Origin: Pseudonocardia sp.
Lineage (GTDB): Bacteria > Actinomycetota > Actinomycetes > Mycobacteriales > Pseudonocardiaceae
Length of the DNA stretch: 40,340 nucleotides
Direction of reading: 5' to 3'
NCBI GenBank assembly: GCA_025869365.1
Contig: JAOZVV010000119.1
Location: 1 to 40,340, forward strand
The stretch's first letter is position 1; every line of letters begins with the position of its first letter. The translations under genes and the position numbers were made by a program. The notes beneath the pieces are model-generated. The model was not told the origin of the DNA. It saw nothing but the letters and a program-made list of their open reading frames with translations, and ran no database searches. Below are positions 8,688 to 15,383 of this stretch, piece by piece.

Positions 8688-11012
8688 ATGGGATCGATGG
8701 TCGGCGCATCGGTGGTCCGCAAGGAGGACCCCGCACTGCTCACCGGACGCGGCAGGTTCGTCGACGACATCCGGCTGTCCGGCACGGTGCACATGGTCTT
8801 CGTGCGCAGCTTCGCCGCCCACGCCAGGATCGTCTCGATCGACACGGACGAGGCACGCACGCTGCCCGGGGTCCTCGGGGTGTGGACGAACGCTGACCTC
8901 GAGGGGCTGCCCGCGAGCCGTTCGGTGCCCGGCATGGAGCGGCCGTGCCTGGCGAAGGACAAGGTCCGCTTCGTCGGCGAGCCGGTGGCCGTCGTCGTCG
9001 CGACGGACCGCTACCTCGCCGCCGACGCCGCGGAGGCCGTCCTCGTCGAGTACGAGGACCTGCCCGTCATGGCCTCGATCGAGGCCGCCACCGCCGACGG
9101 CGCCGTCCCGATCATGGACGGCCTGCCGACGAACGTGGTGCTGGAGCAGCAGCTCAGCGCCACCGACGCCGAGGAGGAGCTGGCCGCGGCCCCTCACCGG
9201 CTCGCGCTCCGGCTGCGGAACCAGCGGTGTGCCGCCGTGCCGATGGAGCCCACGGTCTGCCTCGCGGACTGGCAGTCCTCCGGCTTGACGATCTGGGCCA
9301 CCAGCCAGACCCCGCACCACATGCGCAACGAGATCGCCCAGATGTTCGGGCTCTCGCAGCAGGAGGTCCGCTTCGTCGCGCCGGACGTCGGCGGCGGCTT
9401 CGGTGCCAAGGCGTCGTTCTACCCGGAGTTCCTGCTCACCGCGGAGCTCTCCCGTCGGCTGCGCAGGCCCGTCAAGTACGTGGAGACCCGCAGCGAGAAC
9501 ATGACGTCGATGGTCCACGGGCGGGCGCAGGACCACGAGGTCGAGGTCGGCTTCGACGACGACGGGACGCTCCTCGCCCTGCGCGTGCGGATCACGCAGG
9601 ACTGCGGCGGCTGGCCGGACACCACCGGCATCGGGCTGCCCACGCTCACCTCGTTCATGTCCGGCGGCTGCTACAAGATCCCGGTCATCGCACCGAGCTT
9701 CCGCTCCGTGGTCACCAACACCACACCGGTCGGTTCCTACCGCGGGGCCGGCCGTCCCGAGGCCTCGTACATGATCGAGCGGGTGGTCGACCGCGTCGCC
9801 GCCGAGCTGGGCCTGGACCCGCTCGACGTGCGGCGGCGCAACTTCGTCCAGCCCGGCGAGATGCCCTTCGCCACCCAGTTCGAGGGCATCGTCTACGACG
9901 AGGCGGACTTCCCCGGCGCGCTCGCGAAGCTGCTCGAGCACGTGGACTACGAGGCTCTGCGCAAGGAGCAGGCCGGACGCCGCGACGATCCCGACGCCCC
10001 GCTGCTGGGGATCGGGTTCTCGACGTTCGTCGAGATGGGGGGCTTCGGCCCGACGCCGCTGTTCGAGCAGTTCGGCTACGTCGGCGGCTGGGAGTCCGCC
10101 AACGTCCGGCTCAACGTCGACGGGTCCGCGGTCATCAAGGTCGGCACCAGCCCGCACGGCCAGGGCCACCAGACCGCGTTCGCCCAGATCGTCGCCGACC
10201 AGCTCTCCGTCCCGTTCGAGCGCATCACCCTGGTCCACGGGGACACGGCCACCGTGCAGGAGGGCATCGGGACGATGGGCAGCCGCGGGGTGCCCGTCGG
10301 CGGCTCGGCGGTGTTCAAGGCCGCGAACAAGGTGCGGGACAAGGCGATCCGGATCGCCGCCCACATGCTGGAGGCGGACGAGAAGGACATCGAGCTCGCC
10401 GACGGCCGGTTCTCCGTCCGCGGCGCCCCGGACCAGGGCGTGAGCATGGCCGAGGTCGCCGTGCGCGCCTTCAAGCCCCACCTGCTCCCGGACGGCTTCG
10501 ACCTCGGCCTCGACGAGACCGCGTTCCACGAGCCGTCGAACCTCTCCTACCCGTCCGGCGCGCACTGCTGCGTGGTCGAGATCGACCGGGGCACCGGGAA
10601 GGTCGCGGTCGCCCGCTACGTCGCCGTCGACGACTGCGGGACCGTGATCAACCCGCTGATGGCGAGGGGCCAGATCCACGGCGGCGTCGCACAGGGCATC
10701 GCCCAGGCCCTGCTCGAGGAGGTCACCTACGGCGAGGACGGCCAGCCCGGCTCCGGCACGCTCGTCGACTACACCCTGCCGTCTGCGCTGGACCTCCCCA
10801 CCTACGAGACGGACCACCTGGTCACCAGGACCAGCTTCAACCCGCTCGGCGCCAAGGGACTCGGCGAGTCCGGGGCCACCGCGGCCCCCCAGGCCGTCGT
10901 CAACGCCGTGGTGGACGCCATGGCCCACCTGGGCGTCCGCACCATCGACATGCCCTGCACCCCGCAGAAGGTCTGGCGGGTCCTGCAGGCCGCAACCCGG
11001 AACGGGAGCTGA
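8688..11012 (+). CDS. Molybdopterin-dependent hydroxylase large subunit (xanthine dehydrogenase/CoxL type, form II)
   Basis: This 774-residue catalytic subunit belongs to the xanthine oxidase family of molybdenum hydroxylases, which insert water-derived oxygen into a C-H bond or oxidise aldehydes. Key parts are DVGGGFGAK (233-241), SYRGAGR at 350-356 and the catalytic glutamate E727 in GLGESG. The SYRGAGR loop is the form II type, not the AYxCSFR loop of true CO dehydrogenase, so CO is not the substrate. It starts with ATG behind GAGGAGG. The small subunit follows after four bases, but no FAD-binding medium subunit is present. Confidence 0.93.
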
Positions 11013-11016
11013 CCCG

Positions 11017-11526
11017 ATGTCCCACCACAAGGTCCGGATCTCCGTCAACGGCACCGCCGGCGAGGACGAGATCGAGTCCCGCCAGCTGCTCGTGCACTAC
11101 CTTCGCGAGACGCGCGGGCTCACCGGCACCCACGTCGGGTGCGACACCTCGAACTGCGGTGCCTGCACGGTGATGCTGGACGGGAAGACCGTGAAGTCCT
11201 GCACGGTGCTCACCGTCGCGGCCGACGGCGGGGACGTGCTCACCGTCGAGGGGCTCGACGAGCAGGGCGAGATGTCCCCGGTGCAGAAGGGTTTCCAGGC
11301 CTGCCACGGCCTGCAGTGCGGCTACTGCACCCCCGGAATGGTCATGGCCGCCACCGGGCTGCTGCTGGAGCAGGAGAACCCGGACGACGCCGCGATCCGG
11401 GAGGGCATCGAGGGCAACCTCTGCCGCTGCACGGGCTACGACATGATCGTCGACTCGGTGCGCTGGGCGGCGGAGCACGGCGGCCCCGGAACGGCCGCCC
11501 GCGCACACGCGAACGGAAGGAACTGA
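11017..11526 (+). CDS. Molybdenum hydroxylase small subunit with two [2Fe-2S] clusters
   Basis: The 169-residue iron-sulfur subunit has the plant-type cluster ligands Cys42, Cys47, Cys50 and Cys62, then the helical-domain cluster ligands Cys101, Cys104, Cys136 and Cys138 (CGYC and CRC motifs). It relays electrons from the molybdenum centre of the large subunit. In most systems they pass to an FAD subunit, which is missing here, as in the two-subunit isoquinoline-1-oxidoreductase type that donates to a cytochrome or another carrier. It is tightly linked to the genes on both sides. Confidence 0.94.
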
Positions 11527-11530
11527 ACAC

Positions 11531-12373
11531 ATGGCCGCCGTACTGCGAGGGCTCGAGGGCAAGAACGTCCTGATCACCGGTGCCGCGAAGGGGCAGGGCT
11601 TCAGCCACGCCAAGGCCTTCGCCGACGCCGGCGCGGACATCGCCGCGCTGGACATCACCGAACCGATCACGGACATCTATCCCCTGGCCACGGCCCAGAT
11701 GCTGGACGACACGGTCAAGGCGATCGAGGACCTGGACCGCCGGGTCATCCCGCTGCCGTGCGACATCCGGGACGAGAGCCAGGTCGAGGCGTCCGTCGCC
11801 AAGGCCCTGGACTTCTTCGACGGCCGCATCGACATCCTGGTCTGCAACGCCGGTGTCGCGGCGCTGGACAGCATCCAGGGCATGCGCGGGAACGTCCTCG
11901 ACGCGGTGATCGACACGATCGTCAAGGGCCACATGTACGTGGCCAAGTACGTGGTGCCGAACATGATCGGCCGGCGCTCGGGCAAGATCGTCAACATCTC
12001 GTCCGGCGTGACCGGCGCGGGGCACGCCCAGCTCTCGCACTACGTCGCGGCCAAACACGCGATCCAGGGCCTGACCTCGGCGTGGGCCTACGAGCTGGCC
12101 GAGTTCGACATCAACGTGAACTGCATCGCCCCGGCCACGATCAAGCCGGGCGAGGGACAGGGCTCCGGAATGGTGCTGGGCCTCGCGGGCGAGGTCGACA
12201 TGACCCCCGAGGACGCCTACGAGATGTTCTCCGCCGCGGGCAACATGCCCGGCCCCAAGTGGCGTACGGAGATGCAGGACATCACCGACGCCGTGCTGTT
12301 CCTGGCCTCGGACAACGCCGACCAGATCACCGGCCACATCCTGCGCGTCGACGCGGGCCAGGGGGCGAAGTAG
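11531..12373 (+). CDS. Mycofactocin-type SDR, carveol-dehydrogenase-like
   Basis: This 280-residue short-chain dehydrogenase has TGAAKGQG at 16-23, Ser158, Tyr171 and Lys175 as the catalytic set, and D41 after the second strand. The insertion DITEPITDIYPLATAQMLDD (41-60) is diagnostic of the mycofactocin-coupled subfamily (TIGR03971), which holds carveol dehydrogenase LimC. These enzymes keep NAD(H) bound and are thought to re-oxidise it through mycofactocin. It lies five bases after the iron-sulfur subunit with a GGAAGGA ribosome site. It probably oxidises a secondary alcohol made by the P450 or epoxide hydrolase. No mycofactocin biosynthesis gene is in the window. Confidence 0.88.
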   Translation: MAAVLRGLEGKNVLITGAAKGQGFSHAKAFADAGADIAALDITEPITDIYPLATAQMLDDTVKAIEDLDRRVIPLPCDIRDESQVEASVAKALDFFDGRIDILVCNAGVAALDSIQGMRGNVLDAVIDTIVKGHMYVAKYVVPNMIGRRSGKIVNISSGVTGAGHAQLSHYVAAKHAIQGLTSAWAYELAEFDINVNCIAPATIKPGEGQGSGMVLGLAGEVDMTPEDAYEMFSAAGNMPGPKWRTEMQDITDAVLFLASDNADQITGHILRVDAGQGAK

Positions 12374-12389
12374 CCCCGGCCGACACTGA

Positions 12390-13373
12390 TCACGCCCCGG
12401 TCCGGCGGAACAGGAAGATCCCGTACGCCGGATCGGGCTCGGTCCACTCGGCCTGCGCGGTGAACCCCTTCGCCCCGACGTCGGCGACGAACCGGTCGCG
12501 GTCGAACTTCGCCGAGAAGCCGACGTTGATCGAGTCGCCGGCCGCCAGGGTGAGCGTCAGGCCGAGCCCCGGGATCGCGGCCGTGCACGCCTGCGTCGCG
12601 TAGAGGTGCCCCTCGACGACCTCGTCCCGGTGCTCGTAGTGGGCGTTCGGGACGAAGTCCTCGAGCCGCAGCCGCGACCCGAAGCGGCGGTCGAGGTGCG
12701 TGAGGTGGTTGAGCCGGAAGTCCGCGAACGCGGTGTGGCCGGGCGGGTCGTTGTAGCAGGTCACGAGCTCGCCACCGGGCTTGACCAGGTCGATGGAGAC
12801 GAGGAACCCGTCACCGGGGCGCAGCGCCGCGGCGATGTCGCCCAGCAACGCGTCCCGCTCGGCGGGGGTGGTGTTGCCCAGGTTGCTGCCGAGGAACGCG
12901 ACGACCAGCGGGCCGTCCGGCGAGCGCCGCAGCCAGTCGAGGCCGGCCTCGTAGCGCCCCCACAGGCCGATGACGTCCAGGCTCGGCACCGCCTCGCCGA
13001 GGGTCGCGGCACTGAGCTCCAGCATCTCCCGGCTGACGTCGATCGGCAGGTAGGTGGTGGGGCGCAACGCCGCGCAGGCGTCGAGCAGCAGGCGGGTCTT
13101 CTTCGCGCTCCCGCTGCCCATCTCGGCGAGCCTGCCGCAGCCCAGCGCCTCGGCGATCTCGGCGGCGTGCCGTTCGAGCAGCGAGCGTTCGACCCGGGTG
13201 AGGTAGTAGGTGGGCAGCCCGGTGATCTCCTCGAAGTACCGTGAGCCCGCCTCGTCGTAGCCGAACCACGGCGGGATCCGCGGGACCTCCTCGCGCAGGC
13301 ACGCCGCGACGGCCTCGCGGTCGTCCCAGAAGGCGCCCTCGCCCTCGACGGCGAGGATCCGCGAGGAGCTCAC
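12390..13373 (-). CDS. EgtD-family amino-acid N-methyltransferase with altered substrate pocket
   Basis: The 327-residue protein matches the SAM-dependent histidine N-alpha-trimethyltransferase family (Methyltransf_33): GLPTYYLTR (52-60), EMGSGSAKKTRLLL (84-97), FLGSNLGN (160-167) and the end loop FSAKF (286-290). Counterparts of the EgtD amino-acid-binding residues N166, Y206 and S284 are kept (N167, Y208, S287). The two residues that read the imidazole ring, M252 and E282, align with Gly255 and Gly285. A larger or aromatic amino acid, or a peptide terminus, is therefore a better guess than histidine. GTG at 13373 overlaps the previous stop. No egtB, egtC or egtE lies nearby. Confidence 0.85.
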   Translation of the reverse strand: MSSSRILAVEGEGAFWDDREAVAACLREEVPRIPPWFGYDEAGSRYFEEITGLPTYYLTRVERSLLERHAAEIAEALGCGRLAEMGSGSAKKTRLLLDACAALRPTTYLPIDVSREMLELSAATLGEAVPSLDVIGLWGRYEAGLDWLRRSPDGPLVVAFLGSNLGNTTPAERDALLGDIAAALRPGDGFLVSIDLVKPGGELVTCYNDPPGHTAFADFRLNHLTHLDRRFGSRLRLEDFVPNAHYEHRDEVVEGHLYATQACTAAIPGLGLTLTLAAGDSINVGFSAKFDRDRFVADVGAKGFTAQAEWTEPDPAYGIFLFRRTGA

Positions 13374-14389
13374 GCCCCGCTACCGGCCGGTGGGCGGCGC
13401 AGGCTGCTCTCCCCCGCGCCCCAGCAGCGGAGCAGGTGCTCGCCGAGCCGGTCCCCCAGCATGAGGCTCGCCCGGATCCCGAACACCACGTCGGCGGCGA
13501 GCTCCGGTTCCGCATCGAGCATCGGGCCCAGGACGCCGCGGCGGATGATCTGCTCGTGGACGGCGTCGGCCTCGACGTGCTCGTCGTAGAACCGGATCGC
13601 GGCAGGACCGCAGCCGAGCCGGCGCATCGCCCGCACCAGCCGTTCCGATCCGGGGGACGACGTCAGCTCGACCATCGCGAACTGACCGACGAGCGCGCCG
13701 CGCAGGCTGCGGTGCAGCCCGCACAGCGACATGAGGTTGACCTCGGCCAGGGTCGCCCCCGGTACCGAGTCCAGGTAGGAGCCGTAGGCGGCGGAGAGCC
13801 CGAGCTCGCGCATCATGTCCGCGAACAGCAGGGCGTGCATCCGGTCCGGGTCGCCCGCGCCGTACTCGTCGTGCTCGACGGTGACCAGCGCCGCCTTGGC
13901 CGCGCCCGCCAGCCGCGGGATGACCCAGGCCTGCGGGTCGGCCTCCTTGAGGTGGTAGATCGAGCGGTGGGTGACGTACTCGCGGAGCTGCCACAGCTCG
14001 CCGTCGCGGCGCAGGTGGTGGGACACGCCGCCGACGTCCGGGCCCACCGGCTCGACGAGCAGGGCGTCGACCTCGGCGGCCACGTCGTCCCCCGGCTCGA
14101 CGTCCCGGCGCAGGGCGGCCAGGAACACCCGCTCCAGCTCACGGCGCAGCCGTAGCAGGTCCGGGTCCCACTCCAGCTCGTCCTCGACCCCGGCGAAGCC
14201 GCGGTAGTGCAGCTCGTAGCAGCAGTACAACGCGAGCTGGAGATCCTCGCCGTACGGATCCGCGGAAGCCGCGTCCGGGGCGGCGACCGGTTCGCCGCGC
14301 AGCGCGGCGAGGACCGCGGAGGACAGGGGGCCCCGGGGCCCGGGCAGCGGCGCGGCCTCCACGGGGCGCACGGGCGCGGTGCCGATCAC
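13370..14389 (-). CDS. Haem-oxygenase-fold iron-containing redox enzyme (HDO-like, pfam14518 type)
   Basis: A 339-residue, mostly helical protein of the iron-containing redox enzyme family. Family landmarks are CCYELHYRGF (about 56-65), REYVTHRSIYHLKEADPQAW (136-155), VEHDEYG (171-177) and DEHVEADAVHE (269-279). Candidate metal ligands are E59, E137, H146, E172, H173, H271, D275 and H278. The superfamily includes diiron oxygenases that N-oxygenate or fragment amino acids and fatty acids (SznF, BesC, UndA). The GTG at 14389 overlaps the CDGSH gene stop and its own stop overlaps the EgtD-like start, so it is fixed inside this operon. The substrate is unknown. Ligand assignment is by eye. Confidence 0.82.
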   Translation of the reverse strand: MIGTAPVRPVEAAPLPGPRGPLSSAVLAALRGEPVAAPDAASADPYGEDLQLALYCCYELHYRGFAGVEDELEWDPDLLRLRRELERVFLAALRRDVEPGDDVAAEVDALLVEPVGPDVGGVSHHLRRDGELWQLREYVTHRSIYHLKEADPQAWVIPRLAGAAKAALVTVEHDEYGAGDPDRMHALLFADMMRELGLSAAYGSYLDSVPGATLAEVNLMSLCGLHRSLRGALVGQFAMVELTSSPGSERLVRAMRRLGCGPAAIRFYDEHVEADAVHEQIIRRGVLGPMLDAEPELAADVVFGIRASLMLGDRLGEHLLRCWGAGESSLRRPPAGSGA

Positions 14390-14604
14390 CGCTCGTCCTC
14401 TCCGCCCGCACCGACGCGGACCCTGCGCCGGTGGCTGGTGTCGCAGAAGGGGTAACGGCGGCTGCGCCGGCAGGCACACAGCGCCGTGACCGGCCGGTCC
14501 GACGTCACCCGGGTGCCGTCGGGCAGGACGAGCTCGACCGGCCCCGAGACCAGGAGCGGACCCTCCTCGGTCAGCACGACCTGGCGGCGGGGATCAGCCG
14601 GCAC
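14386..14604 (-). CDS. CDGSH-type [2Fe-2S] protein
   Basis: The 72-residue protein carries one CDGSH-like binding site, CACRRSRRYPFCDTSH (43-58): three cysteines and a histidine in the order of mitoNEET-type clusters, with the usual CDG reading CDT. Such proteins bind a labile 2Fe-2S cluster and act in electron or cluster transfer. Its first 11 bases overlap the methyltransferase gene and its last 4 overlap the iron-enzyme gene. By position it is the likely electron donor to the iron enzyme, which is an inference. Confidence 0.9.
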   Translation of the reverse strand: MPADPRRQVVLTEEGPLLVSGPVELVLPDGTRVTSDRPVTALCACRRSRRYPFCDTSHRRRVRVGAGGEDER

Positions 14605-15265
14605 GGCGGGCGCCGATCACGACGAGGTCCTCCTCGGTCTCCCCCGGCTCGATCAGGCCGCGGGCCTCCAGCATCGCCGCGCGGGCCCGCATCACCGGCC
14701 CGAACGGGATCCGCGCCCGGTCCACGACCTCCGCCACGAGCCCGTGCCGGGCGAGGCGCTGCACCGTGGCCTCCGCCCCGCACACCGCGGAGTGGATCAC
14801 CAGCAGGCGGCCGTCGTCGGTGAGGTGGGACTCGGCGCCGTCGCAGATCCGGTCGAGCAGGGTCCGGCCGTCCAGGCCCGCGTCCCAGCACCGGGCGATG
14901 CCGTAGCGGGGCAGGGTGGCGGTCTCGGCGGGCACGTACGGCGGGTTGGCGACGATCAGCCCGAACCGGCGGCCGTCGACCGGGCGGTACAGGTCACCGC
15001 GCCGCACCGACACGCGGGCGCCGTGCATCCGGGTGTTCAGCCACGTCGCCGCCACGGAGCGCCGGGAGAGGTCGACCGCGGTGACCGAGGCCGCACCGGC
15101 CCGGGCCGCGGCGAGGGCGAGTGCACCGGAGCCGGTGCCGAGGTCCAGCACGTCACGGCCGGCGGCGTGGCCGGTGCGCGCCAGCACGCCCGCCATCACG
15201 GCGGTGTCGCCCTGGGCCCGGTACACCCCGGGCGGGGAGAGCAGGTACATCTGTGCGATCGTCAC
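14594..15265 (-). CDS. HemK2/MTQ2-type class I methyltransferase
   Basis: The 223-residue protein has the SAM-binding motif DVLDLGTGSG (38-47), VTAVDLS (61-67) and the catalytic NPPY at 107-110. NPPY marks N-methyltransferases acting on glutamine side chains or amino groups in nucleobases. The SPPGVYRAQGDT start (10-21) is like HemK2/MTQ2 proteins. I chose the GTG at 15265, which has GAAGGAA upstream. An ATG nine codons earlier (15292) has no ribosome site. It is the promoter-proximal gene of the four-gene operon. Whether it modifies a protein or a small molecule is open. Confidence 0.85.
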   Translation of the reverse strand: MTIAQMYLLSPPGVYRAQGDTAVMAGVLARTGHAAGRDVLDLGTGSGALALAAARAGAASVTAVDLSRRSVAATWLNTRMHGARVSVRRGDLYRPVDGRRFGLIVANPPYVPAETATLPRYGIARCWDAGLDGRTLLDRICDGAESHLTDDGRLLVIHSAVCGAEATVQRLARHGLVAEVVDRARIPFGPVMRARAAMLEARGLIEPGETEEDLVVIGARRAG

Positions 15266-15383
15266 CGGGCTGTTCCTTCGTCCGTCCGACATGAGGGCGG
15301 CGTTCTGCACCCGTACGGGCGCTACCACCACCGCGTCCGCGCCAAACCCGGCACCGCGTCCGCGCCGGACCCGGCCCCGCCCG

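Follow-up and report, generated by a model that had tools for sequence, protein, structure and literature searches.

A heme-oxygenase-like diiron enzyme and a CDGSH protein form the core of a methyltransferase-associated gene module in Pseudonocardia and other actinobacteria

Introduction

Few heme-oxygenase-like diiron enzymes (HDOs), about a dozen, are of known function (PMC13108848). The present work concerns a four-gene operon of Pseudonocardia sp. (assembly GCA_025869365.1, contig JAOZVV010000119.1) in which an HDO gene is combined with genes for a CDGSH-type [2Fe-2S] protein and two methyltransferases; the whole stretch of 40,340 nucleotides that was analyzed is referred to as the window. 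Among the described systems, SznE/SznF from the streptozotocin pathway (SznF, PDB 6VZY) has the SznF-type ligand positions in common with the window HDO. The latter differs from SznF in that it has no cupin domain and is only ~20% identical, and the system as a whole differs by its CDGSH partner, its MTQ2-type methyltransferase, its SigF-type promoters and the absence of a recognisable product cluster around the operon. The hormaomycin lysine N-oxygenase HrmI is likewise 20% identical to the window HDO, but its ligand set is described as 3H/3C, unlike the 3H/4C set found here, and the text of the review in question does not mention CDGSH (PMC13108848). MboA/MboB resembles the window system in that the HDO depends on a redox partner for some of its reaction, MboB being the one such partner named in the review; the difference lies in the reaction, which is alkyne formation (PMC13108848). 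Our literature searches found neither a paper linking the gene families of the operon nor a described product, in line with the initial annotation of the locus, which knew of no pathway of this composition.

Results

Operon organization

According to the open reading frame list, four minus-strand genes follow each other from 15265 to 12390 with successive overlaps of 11, 4 and 4 bases, as had been claimed initially (overlaps of 4-11 bases); the translational coupling proposed for them is supported. The genes are:

15265-14594, minus strand: HemK2/MTQ2-family class I methyltransferase (TIGR00537, NPPY motif), first gene of the operon
14604-14386, minus strand: CDGSH-type [2Fe-2S] protein (PF09360), 11-base overlap with the MTQ2-like gene
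14389-13370, minus strand: HDO (PF14518), 4-base overlap (GTGA) with the CDGSH gene
13373-12390, minus strand: EgtD-like (PF10017) amino-acid N-methyltransferase paralogue, an accessory gene, 4-base overlap with the HDO gene

The MTQ2-like gene starts with a GTG that is preceded by GAAGGA; its longest frame opens at 15331. Pfam scores amounted to 280 bits (PF10017), 206 bits (PF14518) and 64.5 bits (PF09360). A role of the operon in anti-phage defence was rejected: of the four proteins, PADLOC matched the methyltransferase alone (mad2 model), which we took as a generic methyltransferase match.

The HDO is tied to the CDGSH protein

Genome-wide profile searches revealed a single PF14518 gene and a single CDGSH gene in the genome of the window, and these two overlap each other. 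Because this arrangement also recurs widely, the adjacency of the two genes is far beyond chance. In a class-wide draw of 196 genomes we found 109 strong HDO places in 106 genomes, and 100 of these places were fetched as loci. A separate PF09360 search of the same 196 genomes located a CDGSH gene within 3.5 kb of 89 of the 109 HDO places, and conversely, wherever CDGSH occurs in a genome with HDO, it is mostly found next to an HDO gene (89 of 98 places). CDGSH is present in 92 of the 106 genomes with HDO as compared with 30 of the 90 others (Fisher p 6e-15, uncorrected for kinship). Fused CDGSH-HDO chains were encountered in 9 of 120 clusters among the matches listed in a search that had been seeded with a fused protein, and loci L023 and L128 encode both domains as a single open frame. 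The pairing of an iron oxygenase-type enzyme with an iron-sulfur partner, as read from the window initially, is thus supported by adjacency and fusions, and we have hardly any doubt that HDO and CDGSH work together.

The CDGSH protein has the motif CxCx2Sx3PxCDxSH with the ligands C43, C45, C54 and H58 and belongs to the 3Cys-1His type of PF09360; in an alignment of 24 sequences the three cysteines are invariant and the histidine is nearly so. The HDO, a member of the PF14518/HDO fold, retains all seven SznF-type (3H/4C) ligand positions. Its predicted ligands E149, E175, H185, E241, H271, D275 and H278 align, as counted by hand from the alignment, to SznF positions 189, 215, 225, 281, 311, 315 and 318, which we take to be the diiron ligands of SznF. 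The seven positions are conserved in 99-100 of 100 HDOs. In structure comparisons the nearest folds were those of the N-oxygenases HrmI, SznF and RohS, well above UndA, BesC and PolF, and the nearest named relatives are Pseudonocardia proteins with up to 88% identity.

Three genes, not four, form the conserved module

At least 568 loci were available, and the neighbourhood of the HDO was inspected in the best 80 of them (the close loci), with neighbours counted within 3 kb. CDGSH was present in 76, an MTQ2-like gene in 71 and both in 69 of the 80 loci; some of the missing partners belong to HDOs at contig ends, and L023 was scored without CDGSH though CDGSH is fused to its HDO. Two of the 80 loci, L007 and L008, do not differ in layout by a single base and might stem from one strain. 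With the EgtD-like gene left aside, the 69 trio loci display six gene orders, some with one or two genes inverted, so the association of the trio has outlived rearrangement. By contrast, an EgtD-like match was found in only 14 of the 80 loci (13 full-length, one partial), and all four genes occur together in 12, a strict count which misses one locus with CDGSH fused to HDO.

Class-wide, any HDO match was obtained in 118 of 196 genomes and 45 of 82 genera. Of the 100 class-wide loci, 84 had CDGSH near the HDO, 56 had an MTQ2-like match (any match above 20 bits), 51 had both and 2 had an EgtD-like gene. Under stricter thresholds the 40 loci of the close clade comprised 37 with CDGSH, 34 with MTQ2, 34 with the trio and 2 with EgtD, as opposed to 46 with CDGSH and none with MTQ2 (at least 150 bits) among the 60 loci of the distant clade, where weaker methyltransferase matches were found in 14. 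The conserved core consists of three genes (MTQ2-like, CDGSH, HDO), not four, and of two in the distant clade. Hence, the data do not support a single conserved kit of four genes. Scarcity as neighbours across actinobacteria, which the initial annotation itself had named as speaking against such a set, applies to the EgtD-like gene and clearly not to the other three. Neighbour clustering around the HDO, a rough analysis based on a crude home-made gene caller, yielded no fourth constant partner.

Beside distant-clade HDOs we observed daptide-MTase-like and PrmC-like methyltransferases (L162:5261-5995 and L174:7175-7816; below family cut-offs), which suggests partner replacement.

The two methyltransferases

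Both methyltransferases that had been recognized in the operon are supported by family assignment. The first scores 93.8 bits with TIGR00537 (HemK2/MTQ2; cut-off 87), and its NPPY motif is invariant in 23 of 23 aligned MTQ2-like sequences. The role of PrmC, which is to methylate the GGQ glutamine of release factors, was rejected as unlikely because a separate PrmC above its family cut-off is encoded elsewhere in the genome (contig C157, 211.7 bits).

The second protein has the fold of the histidine N-alpha-methyltransferase EgtD (AlphaFold 2 model with a predicted local distance difference test score of 90.7; nearest structure 4pim) and has the equivalents of Y39, Y56, N166, Y206 and S284 in common with it. 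It differs from EgtD by glycines at the positions of M252 and E282 and by its TIGR03438 equivalog score of 243.1 bits, which is below the cut-off of 290.9. In 23 EgtD-like sequences, some of them from the same contig, glycine occurs at position 282 in 21 and at position 252 in 20. PDB 4pip is an engineered EgtD (M252V,E282A) with tryptophan bound, and both altered positions are glycine in the window protein. The genome separately encodes a canonical EgtD with Met/Glu at 252/282 on its contig C171 (PF10017, 379.6 bits). The statement that no further ergothioneine gene is present is therefore correct for the window and incorrect for the genome. Ergothioneine synthesis by the operon was rejected since the EgtD-like protein falls below the cut-off, its pocket residues are gone and the canonical EgtD is located elsewhere. 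Inspected by eye, frames beside the latter resemble EgtC and EgtB.

A search of 150 family genomes returned 10 EgtD-like genes of at least 463 bits in 9 genomes, some of which overlap with the close-loci set; the next match scored 302 bits and the rest at most 261. Seven of the 10 genes adjoin the trio, two lie at contig ends and one (L216) has no trio member in the surrounding 10 kb. HDO is encoded in all nine of these genomes, as compared with 108 of the 150 overall. The EgtD-like gene has joined the trio both upstream and downstream. A protein of intermediate score (L217:6001-6930) has Ala/Asp/Ala at positions 252/282/284 and perhaps acts on yet another substrate.

SigF-type promoters are enriched upstream of module genes

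A candidate promoter precedes the operon:

15321..15347, minus strand: candidate SigF/SigB-type promoter ahead of the GTG start codon at 15265, consisting of GTTT-N16-17 and a GGGTA element that deviates at one base

Taken alone this match is weak (~0.03 expected per gene), but it gains support from stronger ones located upstream of related operons. Exact GTTT-N14-18-GGGTA sites were detected upstream of 10 of 100 HDO, 4 of 63 hemK and 3 of 87 CDGSH genes, with ~0.8, 0.5 and 0.7 expected by arithmetic from the background rate. Sites with one mismatch precede 46 of 135 hemK, 31 of 181 HDO and 18 of 164 CDGSH genes (~0.03 expected per gene, the background being drawn from 40 of the loci). Weak methyltransferase matches are counted among the hemK genes here, and two genes may share a site. 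Module genes are thus preceded by SigF-type promoters more often than expected, but most of them have no such site. In 14 of 100 loci a sigma-gene cluster is found near the HDO, its representative scoring above the SigB/F/G cut-off.

According to Table 1 of PMC4694148, MSMEG_1771 (methylase), 1772 and 1773 are strongly down in a Mycobacterium smegmatis sigF mutant (log2 -4.1 to -6.4), and promoters of MSMEG_1771 and 1773 are given in PMC5445863. The layout of L143 (methyltransferase, CDGSH and convergent HDO) includes promoters like those published for MSMEG_1771/1773, and these SigF regulon genes likewise comprise a methylase and two adjacent conserved hypotheticals (PMC4694148). The published neighbours are a P450 and UsfY, neither of which corresponds to the flanking genes of L143 that were compared (Nramp, CsbD-like), and no copy of the promoter sequence as published was found in 297 genomes, so that counterpart identity rests on layout, not on sequence. 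MSMEG_1771-1773 is probably the M. smegmatis counterpart of the module.

Discussion

The explanation that we favour, if tentatively, is a stress-induced diiron N-oxygenase that is served by a dedicated CDGSH protein and combined with N-methylation. The HDO with its SznF-type ligands would activate O2 and N-oxygenate a small and probably amino-acid-derived compound at an amine, amide or guanidine nitrogen, by hydroxylation or by further oxidation. The CDGSH protein would act as dedicated HDO partner which most likely hands electrons singly to the diiron site. By analogy with SznE/SznF, where N-methylation comes before N-oxygenation, the NPPY-type MTQ2-like enzyme may N-methylate the compound that the HDO oxidises. 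The EgtD paralogue, whose histidine contacts are lost, appears to have been added in the window lineage and probably acts on an amino acid other than histidine, which it would methylate at the alpha-amino group. Gene coupling, ligand positions, fold class, fusions, the changed EgtD pocket residues and the promoter enrichment are observed, whereas N-oxygenation, the direction of electron flow, the substrate, the order of steps and the SznE/SznF analogy are inferred; that HDO and CDGSH work together is much more certain than the chemistry. The SznF-type ligand set, the lost histidine-specificity residues and the SigF-type promoters had not been part of the initial annotation.

It is possible, and we propose it with still more reserve, that CDGSH in actinobacteria with larger genomes is chiefly a dedicated electron donor to one SznF-type diiron N-oxygenase in the general stress response, and that the module makes a stress-induced, N-oxygenated and N-methylated metabolite common to many actinobacteria. 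If true, this would reveal a new kind of HDO redox partner and would give CDGSH proteins of bacteria a defined function. One orthologous HDO clade, which occurs in 106 of the 196 genomes drawn from the class, is tightly tied to CDGSH; this tie offers a direct, testable handle on bacterial CDGSH function and on HDO reduction, and the module points to an undescribed stress metabolite.

Several observations weigh against the explanation favoured above. Fourteen genomes have HDO without CDGSH, and since 12 of them come from one family (f17), CDGSH is not strictly required. The 30 genomes with CDGSH and no strong HDO (G004, G021, G038 and 27 others) are all small (1.2-3.2 Mb); genome size thus confounds the co-occurrence count, not the adjacency, and CDGSH has another role in these genomes. 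CDGSH proteins also act as iron-sulfur carriers or sensors. The MTQ2-type enzyme is missing from all 60 distant-clade loci at the 150-bit threshold, the window's own promoter match is imperfect, and the promoter and neighbourhood counts were drawn from related genomes and are not independent. Finally, PMC13108848 states that HDOs with identical ligands catalyse different chemistry and that those studied to date require no protein effector.

The versatility of the superfamily, whose ligands do not fix the chemistry (PMC13108848), lends some weight to another HDO reaction such as C-C cleavage, desaturation, rearrangement or an oxidase reaction on an amino or fatty acid. Given that N-oxygenases are nearest in fold and that the SznF-type ligand positions are all kept, we regard this as somewhat unlikely. 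The CDGSH protein, for its part, might supply iron or a [2Fe-2S] cluster for assembly of the diiron site, or sense redox, rather than deliver electrons at each turnover. Such a function fits the same coupling and fusion data as well as the lability of the diiron cluster reported for many HDOs in the review (PMC13108848), but a turnover partner would account no less well for a domain that is fused and almost always there; the data do not separate the two, and we consider supply or sensing unlikely.

Two further models concern the methyltransferases. A protein-directed stress response, in which the MTQ2-like enzyme, like MTQ2 itself, has a protein glutamine as its target and HDO/CDGSH modifies or senses at the protein level, is compatible with the above-cut-off HemK2/MTQ2 membership, the NPPY motif and the SigF-type promoters. 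It appears improbable in view of the PrmC encoded elsewhere and of a rough neighbour clustering that disclosed no conserved target gene nearby. We judge it very improbable that, along the lines of the initial annotation, the four genes jointly produce a single N-methylated, oxygenated amino acid or peptide end for which the EgtD-like enzyme is essential: the translational coupling in the window operon, the 7 of 10 EgtD-like genes adjoining the trio and their joining on either side would agree with this model, but the rarity of the gene in close (14/80) and class-wide (2/100) loci and the solitary L216 gene argue against it.

Minor observations and flanking genes

The f17 genomes with HDO and without CDGSH are G034, G049, G062, G085, G095, G105, G124, G133, G142, G160, G177 and G186; loci among f17 genomes are L180, L181, L187, L188, L191, L192 and L196. 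Six f17 loci have in common a protein of ~264 residues beside the HDO (L196:5141-5932) that has no Pfam match at 1e-5 and that, in four of the six, matches the MTQ2-like profile weakly. HDO matches of G034, G095, G142, G177 and G186 are split or start near profile position 90, as would be expected of proteins with an insertion at this point. In G245, which belongs to the same genus as the window, matches to the methyltransferase, HDO and EgtD-like proteins are each broken over several frames (L224:4922-7273), reflecting either a decayed operon or sequencing errors.

The genes flanking the window operon, an upstream Na+/H+ exchanger and a downstream short-chain dehydrogenase/reductase (SDR), were rejected as module members: a relative of the former occurs within 6.5 kb of the HDO in 1 of 80 close loci, and the latter, as a member of a large family, has matches in 11 of the 80 loci, where their position varies. 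In the plus-strand region 8688-12373, inspection by eye points to genes for a large subunit like that of molybdenum hydroxylases and for a [2Fe-2S] subunit. Next comes the SDR (PF13561), whose end is 16 bases short of the end of the convergent EgtD-like gene.
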